Assembly (NCBI GenBank): GCA_004524365.1
Contig: SDNL01000004.1
Coordinates: 1-36,961, forward strand
Origin: Promethearchaeota archaeon
Lineage (GTDB): Archaea; Asgardarchaeota; Lokiarchaeia; Sigyniarchaeales; SOKP01
DNA: 36,961 bases
Direction: 5' to 3'
Below the pieces are notes generated by a model, which made no database searches, had not been told where the DNA came from, and worked only from the letters and a program-made list of their open reading frames with translations. Both the position numbers and the translations under genes were made by a program. Shown here one piece after another: positions 3,701 through 19,909 of the stretch (its first letter is position 1; every line of letters begins with the position of its first letter).

Positions 3701-4555
3701 ATGAGAATAAATAAAATTTTTATCGAGCATAAACTTAAGGAATTTTTAAGAGAGGATTGTAGTTTCAAGGATGTGAGCTCGGAATTTATTCCGCCTAAAT
3801 CTTCCACATCTGCAAAAATTATCGCGAAAAGCGATGGTTATATCTCTGGATTAGAAGTCATTAAAATCCTTTTTCAACTATTAGATGTCTCTATTAAACT
3901 TCTTAAGAAGGATGGAGACCCAATTCATCCTGGTGATACAGTTATAGAATTAAAAGGGAATACAAGAGATATATTGCTAGGAGAGAGAGTTGGGTTGAAT
4001 CTACTAACATTAATGAGTTCTATAACAACTACAACAAAAAAGTTTACTAAGATTATTGAAAAATCTCAGAAACAAGTAAAAATTGCTTGTACGAGAAAAA
4101 CAACTCCTGGGTTAAGAATATTTGAAAAATTGGCAGTTCAAATTGGTGGAGGAGACACACATCGGTATTCTTTAGACGATATGATCTTATTAAAAGATAC
4201 TCATTTAAAATTCTATAATGGTGATATTAAAAAATTACTTTCCGAGGTTAGAAAAAATGCGAGTTTTTCTAAAAAAATCGAATTGGAAATCGAAAATGTG
4301 AAAGATATAGTTTCTGCTGTTAATAATGGGGTTGATATCATTATGCTTGATAATATGTCTCCAGCAGAGGCGAGAGATGCTGTAAATTTGCTCAGAGAAA
4401 AGGATTTACGAGATAAAGTTAAAATTGAAATATCAGGCGGTATAACTATTGATAATATCAAAACTTACCTTGATGCTGAACCTGATATTATTAGCACGAG
4501 CGAACTAACTCTTATTCCCTCCGAAAAAGTAGATCTTTCTCTTCGTTTTGAGTAA
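3701..4555 (+). CDS. nadC: Nicotinate-nucleotide pyrophosphorylase (quinolinate phosphoribosyltransferase)
   Basis: RKTTPGLRIFEKLAVQIGGGDTHRYSLDDMILLKDTH and EISGGI motifs; ATG at 3701 follows a GGGTG SD-like site (ORF track uses GTG at 3692). Confidence 0.88.
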   Translation: MRINKIFIEHKLKEFLREDCSFKDVSSEFIPPKSSTSAKIIAKSDGYISGLEVIKILFQLLDVSIKLLKKDGDPIHPGDTVIELKGNTRDILLGERVGLNLLTLMSSITTTTKKFTKIIEKSQKQVKIACTRKTTPGLRIFEKLAVQIGGGDTHRYSLDDMILLKDTHLKFYNGDIKKLLSEVRKNASFSKKIELEIENVKDIVSAVNNGVDIIMLDNMSPAEARDAVNLLREKDLRDKVKIEISGGITIDNIKTYLDAEPDIISTSELTLIPSEKVDLSLRFE

Positions 4556-9340: not shown

Positions 9341-10540
9341 TCATATAACTTTTTTCTGTGTTTCGGTCGAAGTTAGGATAGGCATAGTTTCCAATTTTAA
9401 TGGGGGTTGGACTATTTCCTCTTTATATATAAGATTCGCAATTAAATTCGCTGCAACACCTAATTGATGTTTTAGGGAAAAATGATTTCCAATTAATCCA
9501 TGAATCCCTTTTGTTACAAGTCCCACTCCAAGCACTATCATAGACCAAAATATAAATACAAGCCATAAATCCAGAGCTGGAATAAAAAATATATCAAAAA
9601 TATAGTGTAAGAGAAAGATTGAAAGAGAATAATAAGAAAAGTAATATACAAATCGATATTTTTCATTTATTTTCAAAAACTGGCTTTTCTCAATTGTTAA
9701 CATAAGAGTATATGCATTTATTAACATCCCTAAAGAATATGTGAGCCAACTTATTGAACGGAAGGAAAATAAAAATGATTTGTCTCCCATTGAGATTATT
9801 CCAGGGGGAATAAGAAAAATTCCTGCTAAAATTAATGAAGTTCCTATTAAAAATAAAGGTATAATTCTTTTCTTAAAAAATGTAAGATTTGGATTATTTA
9901 TAATTGGATTATTATAATGTTCATGAATAATATCTCCAAAAAAGGCGCCTATAATGAAAAATGGAAAAAATCCGAGGATCGGGCTTAAATGATCTCCATT
10001 AAACAAGATAAATTGAATAATGAATAGGGGATGATTATATTCGGCTTTAAAGGGATATAAAAAACTGATAAGAATTTGATATAGAATTAATGAAGATAAA
10101 GCCGCGAGAATTTTATAATATTTATTCCTATTTAATAAGGGCCATGCTAAAATCATTGAAATTGGTAATGTTTGTAAAATAAACCATATCCATATTACTG
10201 TAGGGTCTTGTCCTGAAACTACGAAATAGATAAATAGATTAAACCCAAAACTAAGAACTAAAAGTAAAATTGCCTTTAAAAAGTACTTTAAACGCAGTTT
10301 TTTATAAATATTATCTTGTTTGCTAAACGTCTTTTGGTATTTTTTTCTATGAGATAAAGTGATTCCTAATCCTGAAACAAAGAGAAACGCACCAGAACCA
10401 AACCCATCAAAAATATTTACAATTAGATCAAGTAAGGGAAATGCGTTTGCATTCGCTAACCAGAGGGTTATATGTTGGAACAACATCCATATAATGCATG
10501 CACCACGTAAAAAGTCTAAACTGTGTAATCTTTTATCCAT
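9341..10540 (-). CDS. Heparan-alpha-glucosaminide N-acetyltransferase-like (DUF1624-like) multi-pass membrane protein
   Basis: MDKRLHSLDFLRGACIIWMLFQHI N-terminus and about 10 TM segments. Confidence 0.65.
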   Translation of the reverse strand: MDKRLHSLDFLRGACIIWMLFQHITLWLANANAFPLLDLIVNIFDGFGSGAFLFVSGLGITLSHRKKYQKTFSKQDNIYKKLRLKYFLKAILLLVLSFGFNLFIYFVVSGQDPTVIWIWFILQTLPISMILAWPLLNRNKYYKILAALSSLILYQILISFLYPFKAEYNHPLFIIQFILFNGDHLSPILGFFPFFIIGAFFGDIIHEHYNNPIINNPNLTFFKKRIIPLFLIGTSLILAGIFLIPPGIISMGDKSFLFSFRSISWLTYSLGMLINAYTLMLTIEKSQFLKINEKYRFVYYFSYYSLSIFLLHYIFDIFFIPALDLWLVFIFWSMIVLGVGLVTKGIHGLIGNHFSLKHQLGVAANLIANLIYKEEIVQPPLKLETMPILTSTETQKKVI

Positions 10541-10991
10541 CTTGTGAGCTCAAATTTGTTTTATGCTTCATTCTAGTATCTAATGCTTTTATATATTCTT
10601 AAGATCAAATAAGAAGAAATTTAACCTTAACCGCTCAATGCTTTAGATAAAAACGATAATATTAATAAAATAAAAAATTTGTGTGTTTTAAATGTTTGTA
10701 TATTAAAACATTAGATCTATTTTTTTTATCGGATTTCAGTTTTGTATTAGTTATATAACAAAAAATAGTTACATAATTCCTTAAATTATCGGTTTTTACC
10801 ATCTTATTTATATGATTTATTTGGCTGAAATATAAAATAAAAATTTAAAAATAATAATTGGTCTCTCTAATTTTTATAAATCTTAATGATATATTATGTT
10901 TTAATATTAATTAGATTAATATATATATTAATTTTGTTTTTTTTATATTAATAATAACACGAATTAATTTTTGTTTAGATGGGTTTTTTTT

Positions 10992-11396
10992 ATGAAAGTA
11001 TTGAGAGATATATGGATTTTGGATAAAGCGGGAATCGTAGTATTTCACCGTACATTTGAGGAATTAGATGCTCAGTTATTTGGGGGTCTCATGTCCGCAT
11101 TGAACTCTTTTTCCAAAAACTTATCTGAAGAAGGACTTACTAGTTTTGAATTATCCGATAAACGATTTGCCATATATCGACGAAGTGAATTCTTATTTGT
11201 GGGAAATTCAGCCAATAAAATAAAGGAAAAAAGAATTTTTCAAGAATTAGAAGTAATAGCAGACAAATTTTTTCAAATCTATGGGACTATTTTAGATAAA
11301 TGGCAAGGAGATATTAATGTTTTCTCCAACTTCGAAAATCATATAGAGGATTCTCTTGAGGGGACAATAAATAAATTTGAAAAGGCTTTTTGGTAA
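10992..11396 (+). CDS. Longin-like domain small protein (Asgard eukaryotic-signature type)
   Basis: DIWILDKAGIVVFHRTFEELDAQLFGGLMSALNSFSKNL...FELSDKRFAIYRRSEFLFVGNS pattern (beta-beta-alpha-beta-beta-beta-alpha); ATG at 10992. Confidence 0.65.
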   Translation: MKVLRDIWILDKAGIVVFHRTFEELDAQLFGGLMSALNSFSKNLSEEGLTSFELSDKRFAIYRRSEFLFVGNSANKIKEKRIFQELEVIADKFFQIYGTILDKWQGDINVFSNFENHIEDSLEGTINKFEKAFW

Positions 11397-14111: not shown

Positions 14112-16889
14112 TTAGATTTCTAATTTCTGCTTTTCAAGTGTGAGTTCGAATGCTTCTTCCATCCCCTCATCATAGACTCCAATTGAGAATTTATTATGCA
14201 GGGGACTTATTTTCGCACCAATTTCGGCAGATTTATAGATCCCTCTGGCAAATTGTTTGATTAATGGAAGGGTCACCATTTCTGAAGCTTTTTCAAATTC
14301 CTTCAATGTATTGTCATCATATCCTCCCAATAACCCGTCCAAGAATGCATAAAAGAACACGAATAGGAATACTCCTACTATAAATATGAGTGCAGTGTTA
14401 ATCAATTTATCTCCCAAATCAATATTAAAAACTAAATTGCCTAAGAAATAGAGAACTATAAAATTAATGAATGCTGATACAATGGGTGTTATGAAAGTCT
14501 TGAAAGGATAGAGTTTATAATCTGAGATTATACGTTTGACTAAAATCCACGCAACAATATCTTTTGTAAGCACTGCGGGCCAGTAGGCAATTATTACAAA
14601 TCTCATATCATGACTTATGATAAGCAATACCCACATTATTACCCCTCTTATAACTTGCTCTAATATCCAAACTAAGGCTGCCAATCCAGTTTTTCCTGTT
14701 CCTTGGAATACTGCATCCACCAACCATGAATAAATTCCAAAGAAATGAAATATTAATATCAAGGGAAGATATGTGGCTGCGCCACCACCTATTTCTGGTC
14801 CGGCGGCTCCAATTAAAAAGATATTTCCAACAGCAAAAAGCACAGAAAGTAAGAAATACCCGAAATAATTACCCCACCGGAATCCTTGATAAATATACAA
14901 CTTCGTCAATGATTCTTTATCATGATTATAAGATTCGCTATATGCACCCAAAAGTGATTGTCCGTATAGTGTGACAACCTGTATCATCATACCTACTGTC
15001 CAAGCTAATTGATAATATCCCAATTCTGTAGAATAATTTGCAACTAAAAGAGACGTCAATAATGTCTGAATAAACCATCCAATCTGAACAAAAGATTGGC
15101 CAAAAGCCAATTTTGAACCGTAATTCATAGTTTCTTTGAACTCATCTTTAGAAAAGTCAATTCTGAAACAAGTACTTGGTGAATAGCCCAATTTCTTAAA
15201 AATGGTCAAGCTGAAGAAAAAGGTAGCCCAATAGTCAAAATAGCGGGCAAATGCATAACCAACTCCCGCTCCTAGCGCTTCTCCAATTATGGGGATTGTT
15301 CCACCCCATATTTTTCCAAGATAGCAAAAAATTCCTTGTCCAATTAAAAGCCAGAAAATTTCCCAAGATACATAGGTAATAAGATGAAGATCAGCCCTTT
15401 GAAGCCCTTGGAAGGTAAACATAAATACCAAGAAAAAGCCAGGATATTGAACAAGTGAGAAGATAACGAAAATCCATGTCATGTGTGCTAAATTCGTTAA
15501 GGGAAATATTATTGAACCCAAGAACGCAAAGATAAAGACTTGCACCAAACCAGTGAACAATTGCCACCAAACAAAGATTTGAATATAGTGTATCGCTTTT
15601 TCTGGTTGATGTATCCTATATTCGGCAAAATGTTTGGCTAGACTGAAGGATGTTCCAAAATCAAATAAGAGCCAAGCGATCTGGAAGAGATTATAAGCAA
15701 AATTATACCATCCCGAAGCTTGTGCATATGCCTCGCCTAATAGCATAGGGAGAAGGAATGAAGTTAGAAGAAGTTGAGGGATAACTAAAATTAAGCCAAT
15801 AAAGAATGTGAATAAAAACCCACCAACTTGACGATGAATACCTAGTATTTCCCAGTCATCCTTTAAGTCCTCTCTTCCCTTTTCTTCTATCTTCTTTATT
15901 AATTCTTCTCGTTCAGTTATTTCAGCCTTTCTTTCCTCTTCAGCCCTCTGTTTGAGAGTCTCAATAGTTTCTTTATCCATTGTAGATCTCGATTTTTTCC
16001 GTACTGTAATAAAGAGTGCAATAGCAAGACAACCCAATACTACAACAATTATCAATAATATAATTTGATCCATAAAATGGGGTACTGGTGAATATGCCCA
16101 TTGAGCATAAGATTCAATGGGCTCTCCTAAAGTCTCCAAGCTAAGTCCATATAGGAGATAATTAAAATATGGCCATATTATAAACTCATAGTTGTACTGC
16201 TCCGTAGAGTCTCCTTCCAACCATGCTGAAAATAATGAAATTTTTCCAGTTCCCTTTTGTTTTTCCACAATGAAAGGCTTTCTATATGCTTCACGGTTTA
16301 AACTCTTATCCGAACGATAGACATCAATAATTCTATTGACAGATTCATTCAATTCATCCAAATCTAATAAACTCATTGTTTCAGGTTTTATATCCGGTGC
16401 AGAATTCCAATCTATATTTCCACTAATTGCTTTCGAAGAGGATCTGATTAATGAAAGCATATTTTGACTATTATTTGAAAGTGTTGCGGTTGGTTTGATG
16501 AGATCTAATTCTTTTAATAGGGTATCATTTTTTTGGAGAGTTGGACCCATAAAAATCATTAAGCCCTTACCACCATCAACATATGTTTCAATCAAATTAA
16601 TTTCAGAAGAACTTAAATTCGCATCAAATAAAACAACTAAATCATATAAAGCAAGACTTGGTAAAGCCTCGCTATCATCTATCTTACTTATATTAAAGCG
16701 GTTATCAATATGTAATCGTTCATAAAAGTACGAATCGTCTCCATTAGAAACGACTAAAACATCATATCGGCTCCCAGATTGTCCTACTGAAGGTGTGAGA
16801 AATAAAAAGAAAAATGTTCCGCCAGTCAAAATCAATGTAATGATACAAATAATAATTAACGTCGATTTTCCGTTTTTTAGTTTCAACAT
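14112..16889 (-). CDS. GATase-like extracytoplasmic domain + TM + coiled coil + MATE/Wzx-like polysaccharide flippase fusion (925 aa)
   Basis: N-terminal TM then YDVLVVSNG...YDLVVLFDANLSSSEINLIETYVDGGKGLMIFMGP; TM near residue 280; charged KETIETLKQRAEEERKAEITEREELIKKIEEKGREDL helix; then about 12-14 TM segments. Confidence 0.7.
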   Translation of the reverse strand: MLKLKNGKSTLIIICIITLILTGGTFFFLFLTPSVGQSGSRYDVLVVSNGDDSYFYERLHIDNRFNISKIDDSEALPSLALYDLVVLFDANLSSSEINLIETYVDGGKGLMIFMGPTLQKNDTLLKELDLIKPTATLSNNSQNMLSLIRSSSKAISGNIDWNSAPDIKPETMSLLDLDELNESVNRIIDVYRSDKSLNREAYRKPFIVEKQKGTGKISLFSAWLEGDSTEQYNYEFIIWPYFNYLLYGLSLETLGEPIESYAQWAYSPVPHFMDQIILLIIVVVLGCLAIALFITVRKKSRSTMDKETIETLKQRAEEERKAEITEREELIKKIEEKGREDLKDDWEILGIHRQVGGFLFTFFIGLILVIPQLLLTSFLLPMLLGEAYAQASGWYNFAYNLFQIAWLLFDFGTSFSLAKHFAEYRIHQPEKAIHYIQIFVWWQLFTGLVQVFIFAFLGSIIFPLTNLAHMTWIFVIFSLVQYPGFFLVFMFTFQGLQRADLHLITYVSWEIFWLLIGQGIFCYLGKIWGGTIPIIGEALGAGVGYAFARYFDYWATFFFSLTIFKKLGYSPSTCFRIDFSKDEFKETMNYGSKLAFGQSFVQIGWFIQTLLTSLLVANYSTELGYYQLAWTVGMMIQVVTLYGQSLLGAYSESYNHDKESLTKLYIYQGFRWGNYFGYFLLSVLFAVGNIFLIGAAGPEIGGGAATYLPLILIFHFFGIYSWLVDAVFQGTGKTGLAALVWILEQVIRGVIMWVLLIISHDMRFVIIAYWPAVLTKDIVAWILVKRIISDYKLYPFKTFITPIVSAFINFIVLYFLGNLVFNIDLGDKLINTALIFIVGVFLFVFFYAFLDGLLGGYDDNTLKEFEKASEMVTLPLIKQFARGIYKSAEIGAKISPLHNKFSIGVYDEGMEEAFELTLEKQKLEI

Positions 16890-17119: not shown

Positions 17120-17764
17120 TTAATCTTCGTTGGTTCCAATATACTTTCTGACAACTTTCCCATTAGGTTCAGTTTCCTCAAATAAAATGGCTGAAAATTT
17201 ATATACTTTCGTACTTTCATCCTTCCAAGAATCTTTTGGAAGCCAAGCTTTCCGACAAGTCTGCTCTAAGAACGTTTTCTTATCCCAATCTCGATCATGA
17301 TCGACTGGCACTTGCGGGAGTAGTAAACCTCGTCGCATTCCCCGTTCAATAATAAGCCCATCTCTTCCAATTTGTATTTGTTCCAAATATTCCTGGGGAT
17401 TATCAACATCCATTAATTCTGGGGGCGTTAAAATTGATAATTCAATGGTCAGTTTATCCAATTCCTCAAGAGATACAGATGGGAATCGTGGATCCTCAGT
17501 CGCAGAACTTACTGAAACCTTATGTACAGTTTCATAAAGTGGGAATTTAGGTTCTATATGGCCGATACAACCTCTTAACGGATTTCCGCTTATTCCAATT
17601 TTATTTAACGTAACAAAAGCTCCATATTTTTCTCCAAATTTCTTCTTTATCTTATCTGGAACTATCATTCGTTTATTTGTTTTCAAATAATTTTTAATAT
17701 TATCTCTTGCGAATTTTATTAATAATTCCCCATCCTCTCTTGTAAATTTCTCATCCTCTAACAT
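17120..17764 (-). CDS. AMMECR1-domain protein
   Basis: GNPLRGCIGHIEP, SSATEDPRFPSVSLEELDKLTIELSILTPPELM. Confidence 0.92.
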   Translation of the reverse strand: MLEDEKFTREDGELLIKFARDNIKNYLKTNKRMIVPDKIKKKFGEKYGAFVTLNKIGISGNPLRGCIGHIEPKFPLYETVHKVSVSSATEDPRFPSVSLEELDKLTIELSILTPPELMDVDNPQEYLEQIQIGRDGLIIERGMRRGLLLPQVPVDHDRDWDKKTFLEQTCRKAWLPKDSWKDESTKVYKFSAILFEETEPNGKVVRKYIGTNED

Positions 17765-17889
17765 AATAATTATAAGATATATTGTTTTAATTCTTTAATT
17801 ATTCAATATTACTATGTTCATCTAATTGTATTTTTCAATCGCATTAATATTTTTTGCTTAAAAATTAAATTCCTATATAGTTTTGAATT

Positions 17890-19266
17890 TTAATGAGTTT
17901 TTTTTATAATTCTTCCCGTGGGTTCTTGATCTCTCTTATTTATCTCTATACCTCTTAGGAACACTTTCCAAACTTGGACTTCAGTATAAGAACCATTAAA
18001 TGGGGAAAATTTTGCTTTTGAATAAAATGTTGTAGCTTCTATTGGATATGATGATATTCTATCAATAATAAGTAAATCAGCATCATAGCCTTCTTTGATG
18101 AAACCTTTATTCTTCAAATTAAATCGTTTAGCAGGATTTTCCGAAGCCACAGAAACAAATTTACTAAGTGATAATTGATATTTACAAACTTTATCTAAAA
18201 GCATTAAGGGATACGTTTCAAATCCTGGAAAACCTGACGGAGCCTTATAATAATTTTCGGATTTCTCCTTTATAGTATGGGGCGCATGATCTGTACCAAT
18301 TAAGGATATATTATTTTTATTTAATTGCTCAAATAAAAATCTCGAATGCTCTGGGGCACGAAGAGGTGGTAAAACTTTCCCATAATTCTTATTTTTTAAT
18401 TTTATTTCATTTGAAAGTAATAAATGATGTGGAGTAACTTCAAAACTAATATTTAGAAGAGGATATTTATTTAATGCATCTCTGATTAACACAAAACTAT
18501 CTTTACAACTAATATGACAGAAGTGGACAAGTGGATATTTATCGCCCTTTAAATCTTTATCGGATATAATTGTATAATAGTTTTCCAAGATGAAATTAAC
18601 ATATTTTGCTTCTTTTTTCGGAGGATAAAGTTTATTATGTAATTTTAAAATGTCTATATCTACTTGTTCCTCCTTCATTTCGTGTGTAAGCGGCCAATCT
18701 GGGTGAATAAAGATGGGTTTTTGAAACTCAGATGAAAATCCTAACAGTTGCTGGATATTTTCCGAATCTGTCCAAATTATGGGACTGAGTGGACTTAATG
18801 GATATATTTTAAAGCCGATGACTCCCAATTCTACGATTTCTTTCATTTGATCATAATTAATCTCAGGAGGGATTCCAGCTATAAATCCAACATCAGAAAA
18901 AATATTTTTCTCTGCTTTTTTCATCCATTTTCTCACTTGATATGGACTTGTAGCAGGTGGTACAGTATTTGGCATATTAAATATCGTAGTTATTCCAGAA
19001 TAGGCAGCAGCTTTAGTACCCGTCTGAAAGGTTTCTTTATAACTTTGTCCCATATCACGTAAATGTGCATGAATATCAATAATTCCAGGTAATATTATCT
19101 TGTTTTTACAATCAATAATTTGGTTATCTTGGTTTTTCCTCTTCAATTCCTCAAGAGATTCAGGTTGGGAATCAAATCTTATATGGCTAATTATTCCTGA
19201 TTCGATTAAAATGATTCCTTTCCTTAACGTACCTTCATTGTATATTTTCCCATTCTTTAGAATCAT
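17890..19266 (-). CDS. pyrC: Dihydroorotase
   Basis: GIIDIHAHLRDMGQSYKETFQTGTKAAAYSGITTIFNMPNT, GTDHAPHT, SGFPGFET. Confidence 0.88.
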   Translation of the reverse strand: MILKNGKIYNEGTLRKGIILIESGIISHIRFDSQPESLEELKRKNQDNQIIDCKNKIILPGIIDIHAHLRDMGQSYKETFQTGTKAAAYSGITTIFNMPNTVPPATSPYQVRKWMKKAEKNIFSDVGFIAGIPPEINYDQMKEIVELGVIGFKIYPLSPLSPIIWTDSENIQQLLGFSSEFQKPIFIHPDWPLTHEMKEEQVDIDILKLHNKLYPPKKEAKYVNFILENYYTIISDKDLKGDKYPLVHFCHISCKDSFVLIRDALNKYPLLNISFEVTPHHLLLSNEIKLKNKNYGKVLPPLRAPEHSRFLFEQLNKNNISLIGTDHAPHTIKEKSENYYKAPSGFPGFETYPLMLLDKVCKYQLSLSKFVSVASENPAKRFNLKNKGFIKEGYDADLLIIDRISSYPIEATTFYSKAKFSPFNGSYTEVQVWKVFLRGIEINKRDQEPTGRIIKKTH

Positions 19267-19276
19267 AATATCTAAC

Positions 19277-19909
19277 TCATTTCATATTTTTATTATCAAT
19301 CCAATAATTAATCATTAAAATTTGATCTTCTATTTTTTTGATATTGTTTAATATTAATTGTTTTATGTTTATATTTTCGTAGAGAGAATGGTTTAAAAGG
19401 AATTTTGAAGTTGACATATCGTATAAAGATAAAATATATATACCTTCCTTATCAAGCATCTGTTTATCAATTACGTGTAATTTTTGATCATCTATAACAG
19501 ATCTCTCTTTATCATCAATCACATAAATATTTTTATCATTTAATTCCCAAAGTTCTTTAAAAAATGAATTAAAATCACTAAATCGTTTTAAATAAATCCC
19601 GGGCGTAGATTCTCTCCATATATTCATATTTATTCTTAATTCTCGCTTTTGTAAGGCTTTCTGTAATAAAAGAGCTTGAGAACGCTCATCTGGCCCTAAA
19701 AAACGTAATTGCGAACCAATAAATTTCACGCAAATATTATTTCTAATAAAATATATATAGAAATCATTATATTTTCTTATTGCATAAGATAAACAAAAAC
19801 ATGTCCTTAGACAGCAACAAATTTGATAAATTTCATCTGGACAGAAACCACGGTCGATATCTTTTTTGGTATATTCCGTGATTTTTTTGCTTAAAAGTAA
19901 GAATTTCAT
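19277..19909 (-). CDS. Divergent TrmY-like (DUF358/SPOUT) protein
   Basis: CVKFIGSQLRFLGPDERSQALLLQKAL and ESTPGIYLKR match TrmY; C-terminal SAM-knot motif not present. Confidence 0.65.
   Translation of the reverse strand: MKFLLLSKKITEYTKKDIDRGFCPDEIYQICCCLRTCFCLSYAIRKYNDFYIYFIRNNICVKFIGSQLRFLGPDERSQALLLQKALQKRELRINMNIWRESTPGIYLKRFSDFNSFFKELWELNDKNIYVIDDKERSVIDDQKLHVIDKQMLDKEGIYILSLYDMSTSKFLLNHSLYENINIKQLILNNIKKIEDQILMINYWIDNKNMK

Follow-up and report, generated by a model that had tools for sequence, protein, structure and literature searches.

The window analyzed here is the whole of a 36,961-nucleotide contig (G000:C42) from a Promethearchaeota archaeon whose genome is 62% complete. Its minus strand carries a gene for a protein that joins an N-terminal outer domain, anchored by transmembrane (TM) helices, to a polytopic, flippase-like C-terminal half (Table 1). 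The initial annotation had located this open reading frame but given no strand; the frame exists as described, and the plus strand is broken up by stop codons.

Table 1. Features of the fusion gene and its product, in window positions
Feature	Residues	Positions	Strand	Basis and remarks
Whole gene		14112..16889	-	925 aa; ATG start at 16889, stop at 14112-14114
TM helix 1, N terminus cytoplasmic	7-31	16797..16871	-	model helix at low pLDDT; hydropathy 2.64
Extracytoplasmic noncatalytic GATase1/GIFT-type domain	38-271	16077..16778	-	AF2 pLDDT 93.9; Foldseek 3rht E 2.4e-10; hhalign to OST48-like proteins; no conserved Cys
Juxtamembrane stem W-x-x-S-P-V-P-H	264-271	16077..16100	-	conservation
TM helix 2, outside to inside, then KKSR	272-299	15993..16076	-	model and topology
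Charged cytoplasmic linker	300-345	15855..15992	-	24-62 aa across orthologs, not conserved
MOP/Wzx-type flippase core, 14 predicted TM helices	346-853	14331..15854	-	PF01943 at 393-640; Foldseek WzxE/MurJ/MATE; topology, conservation
Conserved cytoplasmic helical tail (D858, N860, E912, K920)	854-925	14115..14330	-	conservation, model

The frame is not a chance one, because it has co-linear, full-length homologs and evolves under constraint. Identity with these homologs is 71-72% within the genus, ~46-59% in other Lokiarchaeal genera, and 33-40% in Sigynarchaeota and other families of the phylum. For most of the pairs whose synonymous sites are unsaturated, dN/dS is ~0.05-0.27 in the N-terminal half as well as the C-terminal one; one value, 0.45 for the N-terminal half of the pair L009/L010, is based on very few changes. 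Purifying selection thus acts on both halves, and the fusion is real and constrained rather than an artefact. The single 925-aa protein finds no match among PDB sequences with phmmer. The AlphaFold model of the whole protein has a pLDDT of 82.8 and a pTM of 0.83.

The C-terminal half scores 38.5 bits against PF01943 (Polysacc_synt; cut-off 28.2), and the search of the whole-protein model against the PDB with Foldseek returns MATE transporters, WzxE (TM-score 0.77 by target length), and MurJ (0.72). The predicted model has 14 TM helices in this half, in line with the 12-14 helices of a polysaccharide-flippase-like protein proposed in the initial annotation. All seven predicted outside loops together contain a single Lys or Arg and the inside loops and tail contain many, a strong positive-inside bias that places both termini in the cytoplasm. 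Within the TM helices, D410, D725, E744, and K776 are invariant. Sequence and model together identify the C-terminal half as a MOP/Wzx-type flippase with 14 TM helices, for which transport of a lipid-linked glycan is predicted. It resembles Wzx/PST-family flippases and MurJ in its Pfam match and MOP fold, and MurJ also in its 14 helices, but differs from them in carrying an N-terminal TM-anchored outer domain and a conserved cytoplasmic tail. The Rft-1 Pfam model matches none of the 31 orthologs at E values up to 0.1, and RFT1 is not known to carry a GIFT domain. RFT1 does share the 14-TM MOP architecture (PMC13385700), and the lipid-linked oligosaccharide (LLO) substrate proposed for it is disputed (PMC4973528).

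Between the two halves, the initial annotation had placed a coiled coil. A charged helix is indeed predicted at residues 306-341 in Lokiarchaea (block pLDDT ~43-59), but it is not a conserved part of the protein, because the linker varies from 24 to 62 aa across orthologs and is in several of them not coiled-coil-like; it is rich in Gly, Pro, and Ala in L043 and of varied make-up elsewhere.

The outer domain was modeled from 36 homologs with high confidence (see Table 1). The model matches the GATase1-like structures 3rht, 3soz, and 2gk3 and ThuA-like proteins (Foldseek E values from 1e-7 to 1e-10, TM-scores ~0.6-0.65). A sequence profile of the domain also finds 3rht among PDB sequences (E = 0.001), with IFT52 not significant (E = 0.19). 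The Pfam matches of the 36 homologs all lie below cut-off: ABC_transp_aux/GldG in 13, DUF7408 in 8, ThuA and DUF4350 in 4 each, and OST48_N in 1. For DUF4350 (PF14258) there is no match in the window's genome, and the best among the homologs is 17.9 bits against a cut-off of 30.4. The structure model agrees with the initial view of the N terminus as a TM-anchored, extracytoplasmic domain with a fold of the GATase, ABC-auxiliary, or DUF4350 kind, and its anchoring and its position outside the cell are likewise upheld. A catalytic role is rejected: no alignment column of the domain has Cys in more than 4 of the 36 rows, so that it is not an amidotransferase. It differs from GATase1-like and ThuA-like proteins (3rht, 3soz, 2gk3, 4e5v) in this lack of a conserved nucleophile Cys and in being membrane-anchored outside the cell, although it shares their fold. 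What is conserved is D62, the loop W161-N-S-A-P165, W239-PYFNY-244, W264, and the SPVPH of residues 267-271; nowhere in the N-terminal half is conservation stronger than in the W-x-x-SPVPH stem at the membrane.

Profile-profile comparison suggests that the outer domain is a remote homolog of OST48/WBP1-type proteins. With OST48-like proteins taken from other Asgard genomes, hhalign gives probabilities of 87.6%, 64%, and 24% for three groups; two additional sets reach 65% and 29%, and none of six unrelated control families exceeds 0.2%. The OST48/WBP1 family cut-off itself is missed (PF03345; 18.6 bits at best against 36, in a single member of 36), as is that of PF09822 (best E = 0.00021, 21.1 bits against 34.7). 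As in OST48/WBP1, a TM helix comes after the outer domain, which is here probably of the GIFT type; unlike OST48/WBP1, the fusion protein lacks a second luminal domain and is joined to a flippase. Genomes of family f18 have both a separate OST48-like gene and the fusion, so that the latter is not simply the local OST48. The second likeness is to GldG (ABC_transp_aux), which pairs with an ABC transporter. There too an outer GIFT-type domain goes with a polytopic transporter, but the fusion's partner is a MOP flippase and not an ABC-2 permease, and no ABC gene was recognized as a consistent neighbor when the neighborhoods were read, mostly by eye. In the literature, sugar binding has been suggested for GIFT domains and LLO recruitment for WBP1 (PMC7226087); according to Eme et al., WBP1 homologs are confined to Heimdallarchaeia (PMC10307638).

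A profile of 31 fused proteins matches 70 of 228 Asgard genomes. Most matches span both halves, the others being contig-end fragments or flippase-only paralogs, and there is usually one fusion per genome. In a scan of contigs that reaches only close relatives, all 13 loci found are titled Lokiarchaeota, Lokiarchaeia, or Sigynarchaeota/Sigynarchaeum; given this reach, the fusion could exist outside Asgard archaea. A tblastn search against plasmids gave no match. The domain order, for which the initial annotation knew of no standard transporter, is common within Asgard archaea and not a curiosity of one lineage, and a search of the literature by terms found no characterization or account of it. 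A survey of Asgard transporters mentions uncharacterized PST homologs in Odin, Loki, and MK-D1, in passages that do not describe the fusion (PMC7997004). Each type of domain is known; the combined architecture is solid and, as far as the literature is searchable, undescribed.

The same two parts also occur as adjacent genes on the same strand, in G048:C305, G030:C263, G045:C423, and G043:C514, and, judging from profile matches, in G039:C90. These split pairs belong to families f2 and f4, plus one genome (G030) of f1, the window's own family. In L047 the domain gene ends at 3823 and the flippase starts at 3827, and in L049, L064, and L066 the frames overlap or abut. That the halves recur as adjacent, sometimes overlapping genes in expanded paralog groups supports a functional pairing. 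In a tree, the flippases of split pairs form one supported clade beside the flippase-only paralogs; long branches make the placement of the root between fused and split forms, with ordinary Wzx as outgroup, uncertain. G039, G041, G043, G045, and G048 carry a large expansion of divergent flippase paralogs, most of which lack an outer domain (for example L050:5326-9163, and L054). Each of these genomes has 15 or more scored homologs, and most of them have 38-49 first-look candidates; the majority of the paralogs fall below the PF01943 cut-off. The domain can also stand without a flippase (L067:3922-5145, L068:3846-5147, L069:3285-4598, L070:3656-4885, L071:346-1620, and L058:4038-6023). It is then followed in L067, L069, L070, and L071 by a secreted, C-terminally anchored protein without a known Pfam family (one was scanned), and in L058 is fused behind another outer domain. 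The stem is kept in split and stand-alone copies.

Comparison of the loci found no glycosyltransferase or oligosaccharyltransferase (OST) gene as a consistent neighbor of the fusion or its orthologs. Ordinary Wzx genes, in contrast, sit within glycosyltransferase clusters in L083 and L077, whereas the fused gene stands alone, its neighbors being unrelated. Gene order is kept among close relatives only. The neighbors concerned, identified for the most part by eye, include MutS-like, hydrolase-like, and AMMECR1/dihydroorotase-like genes and show no functional link. In the window (17120-19909, minus strand), L031, and L038, an AMMECR1-like gene, an amidohydrolase gene, and a gene of 210 aa lie upstream of the fusion, in an order kept in the same genus only. 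Elsewhere in the window, 3.6 kb downstream of the fusion, 9341-10540 (minus strand) encodes a membrane acyltransferase like heparan-alpha-glucosaminide N-acetyltransferase (PF07786, E = 3.7e-14). At 10971-11396 (plus strand) a small protein matches the first longin domain of FUZ/MON1/HPS1 (PF19036, E = 7.5e-8), a eukaryote-type domain.

A search of 22 genomes for the oligosaccharyltransferase STT3 finds it in 21; only the window's own genome, which is incomplete, lacks a match. The STT3 open frames measure ~1217-1362 aa in most Lokiarchaeal genomes tested (f1 and f2; two are fragments), versus 723-939 aa in f8, f15, and f18. In G031, G144, G219, and G086 the search with PF01943, PF13440, PF14667, and MatE found no other full-length MOP flippase, save one sub-threshold MatE match in G086; such a test can miss divergent members below the Pfam cut-offs and sequence missing from the assemblies, and stretches of N adjoin the G144 gene. 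G009 and G055 are not counted among these genomes, because fragments of other flippases lie at contig ends there. Ordinary Wzx genes are found in seven near-complete relatives without the fusion, and also in many genomes with it. This pattern of co-occurrence is consistent with transport of a lipid-linked glycan but falls short of proof.

The explanation we tentatively favor is that the fusion is a single-chain LLO flippase whose outer domain receives or hands on the glycan or docks the OST. A glycan linked to polyprenyl- or dolichyl-(pyro)phosphate would be carried by the 14-TM MOP domain out of the cytoplasmic leaflet and into the outer one. Two TM helices and the SPVPH stem would keep the GIFT-type domain, which is not an enzyme, at the outer face, where it would bind the emerging glycan or dock the acceptor machinery, most likely the STT3 oligosaccharyltransferase, and flipping would thereby be coupled to glycan hand-over. 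The architecture and topology are well supported; the substrate and the role of the outer domain we infer, fairly strongly from homology for LLO as a class, moderately for the N-glycan precursor in particular, and weakly to moderately for hand-over or docking. The fold and family of the flippase, the outer GIFT/GATase1 domain, the adjacent-gene pairs, the co-occurrence with STT3, the genomes with no other full-length MOP flippase found, the ordinary Wzx genes of the seven relatives that lack the fusion, and the proposed sugar binding of GIFT domains all point this way, and a fusion kept usually once per genome and outside glycosyltransferase clusters is as expected of a core function. Against it stand the inconsistent neighborhoods, the ordinary Wzx genes of many fusion-bearing genomes, and the members that the test for other flippases can miss. 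A further objection concerns Tyr383 of yeast WBP1, which presumably lies outside the GIFT domain of that protein. This residue is the reported glycan contact in the pocket for the terminal glucoses that WBP1 helps form (PMC9701220). The many f2 and f4 paralogs, unneeded by one N-glycan pathway, also count against the explanation. A more specific version is on present evidence unlikely: here the fusion would flip the LLO for N-glycosylation in Asgard archaea, and the GIFT-type domain would physically link this step to the STT3 complex, as an analog or an evolutionary relative of the GIFT domain that OST48/WBP1 has in the eukaryotic oligosaccharyltransferase.

Two alternatives have a comparably low standing. 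The initial annotation suggested that the outer domain is a regulatory sensor, which would gate the flippase by glycan, lipid, or envelope state through TM helix 2 and the charged linker. A TM helix does link the domain directly to the transporter, at the cytoplasmic face of its TM1, and the stem at the membrane is conserved; the linker that should carry the signal, however, is unconserved in length and sequence, and the split pairs have no covalent link at all. Glycan reception or docking of a partner protein fits the evidence at least as well as gating, which is possible but improbable. The substrate might instead be a glycan different from the N-glycan (a surface polysaccharide, a glycolipid, or an S-layer glycan), and the domain might be a module for assembly or for handling the polymer. 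Ordinary Wzx proteins of this type have such substrates, the f2 and f4 paralogs suggest diverse substrates, and an acyltransferase-like gene precedes the domain genes in L064 and L065 (PF01757 is below cut-off in L065, and none is called in L064), but the isolation of the fused gene from glycosyltransferase clusters makes this reading doubtful as well.

A purely structural role, with the outer domain as a chaperone or stabilizer of the flippase without a ligand of its own, is very unlikely: the most conserved stretches of the domain lie at the membrane (WPYFNY and SPVPH) and flippase-only paralogs show that the covalent domain is not needed, yet residues elsewhere are conserved (D62 and the WNSAP loop) and stand-alone copies have no adjacent flippase. 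Least probable of all is a MATE-like transporter of drugs or small molecules with an accessory outer domain, since a MATE structure ranks first by E-value in Foldseek but WzxE and MurJ have the highest TM-scores by target, 23 of the 31 orthologs match Polysacc_synt (E up to 0.1) and none MatE, and there are 14 TM helices instead of 12.

For eukaryotes there is no agreement on which protein flips the LLO for N-glycosylation; doubt has been cast on the activity of RFT1, and its origin is obscure (PMC4973528). A flippase widely conserved in Asgard archaea, with a probable WBP1-class domain in the same chain, is a testable candidate for an LLO flippase in the archaea closest to eukaryotes, and its GATase-like outer domain belongs to a fold class also found in the eukaryotic N-glycosylation complex. 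The pairing of GIFT domains with transporters, a theme of ABC systems, would gain a second class of transporter through the fusion, which also provides a handle on what GIFT domains do.
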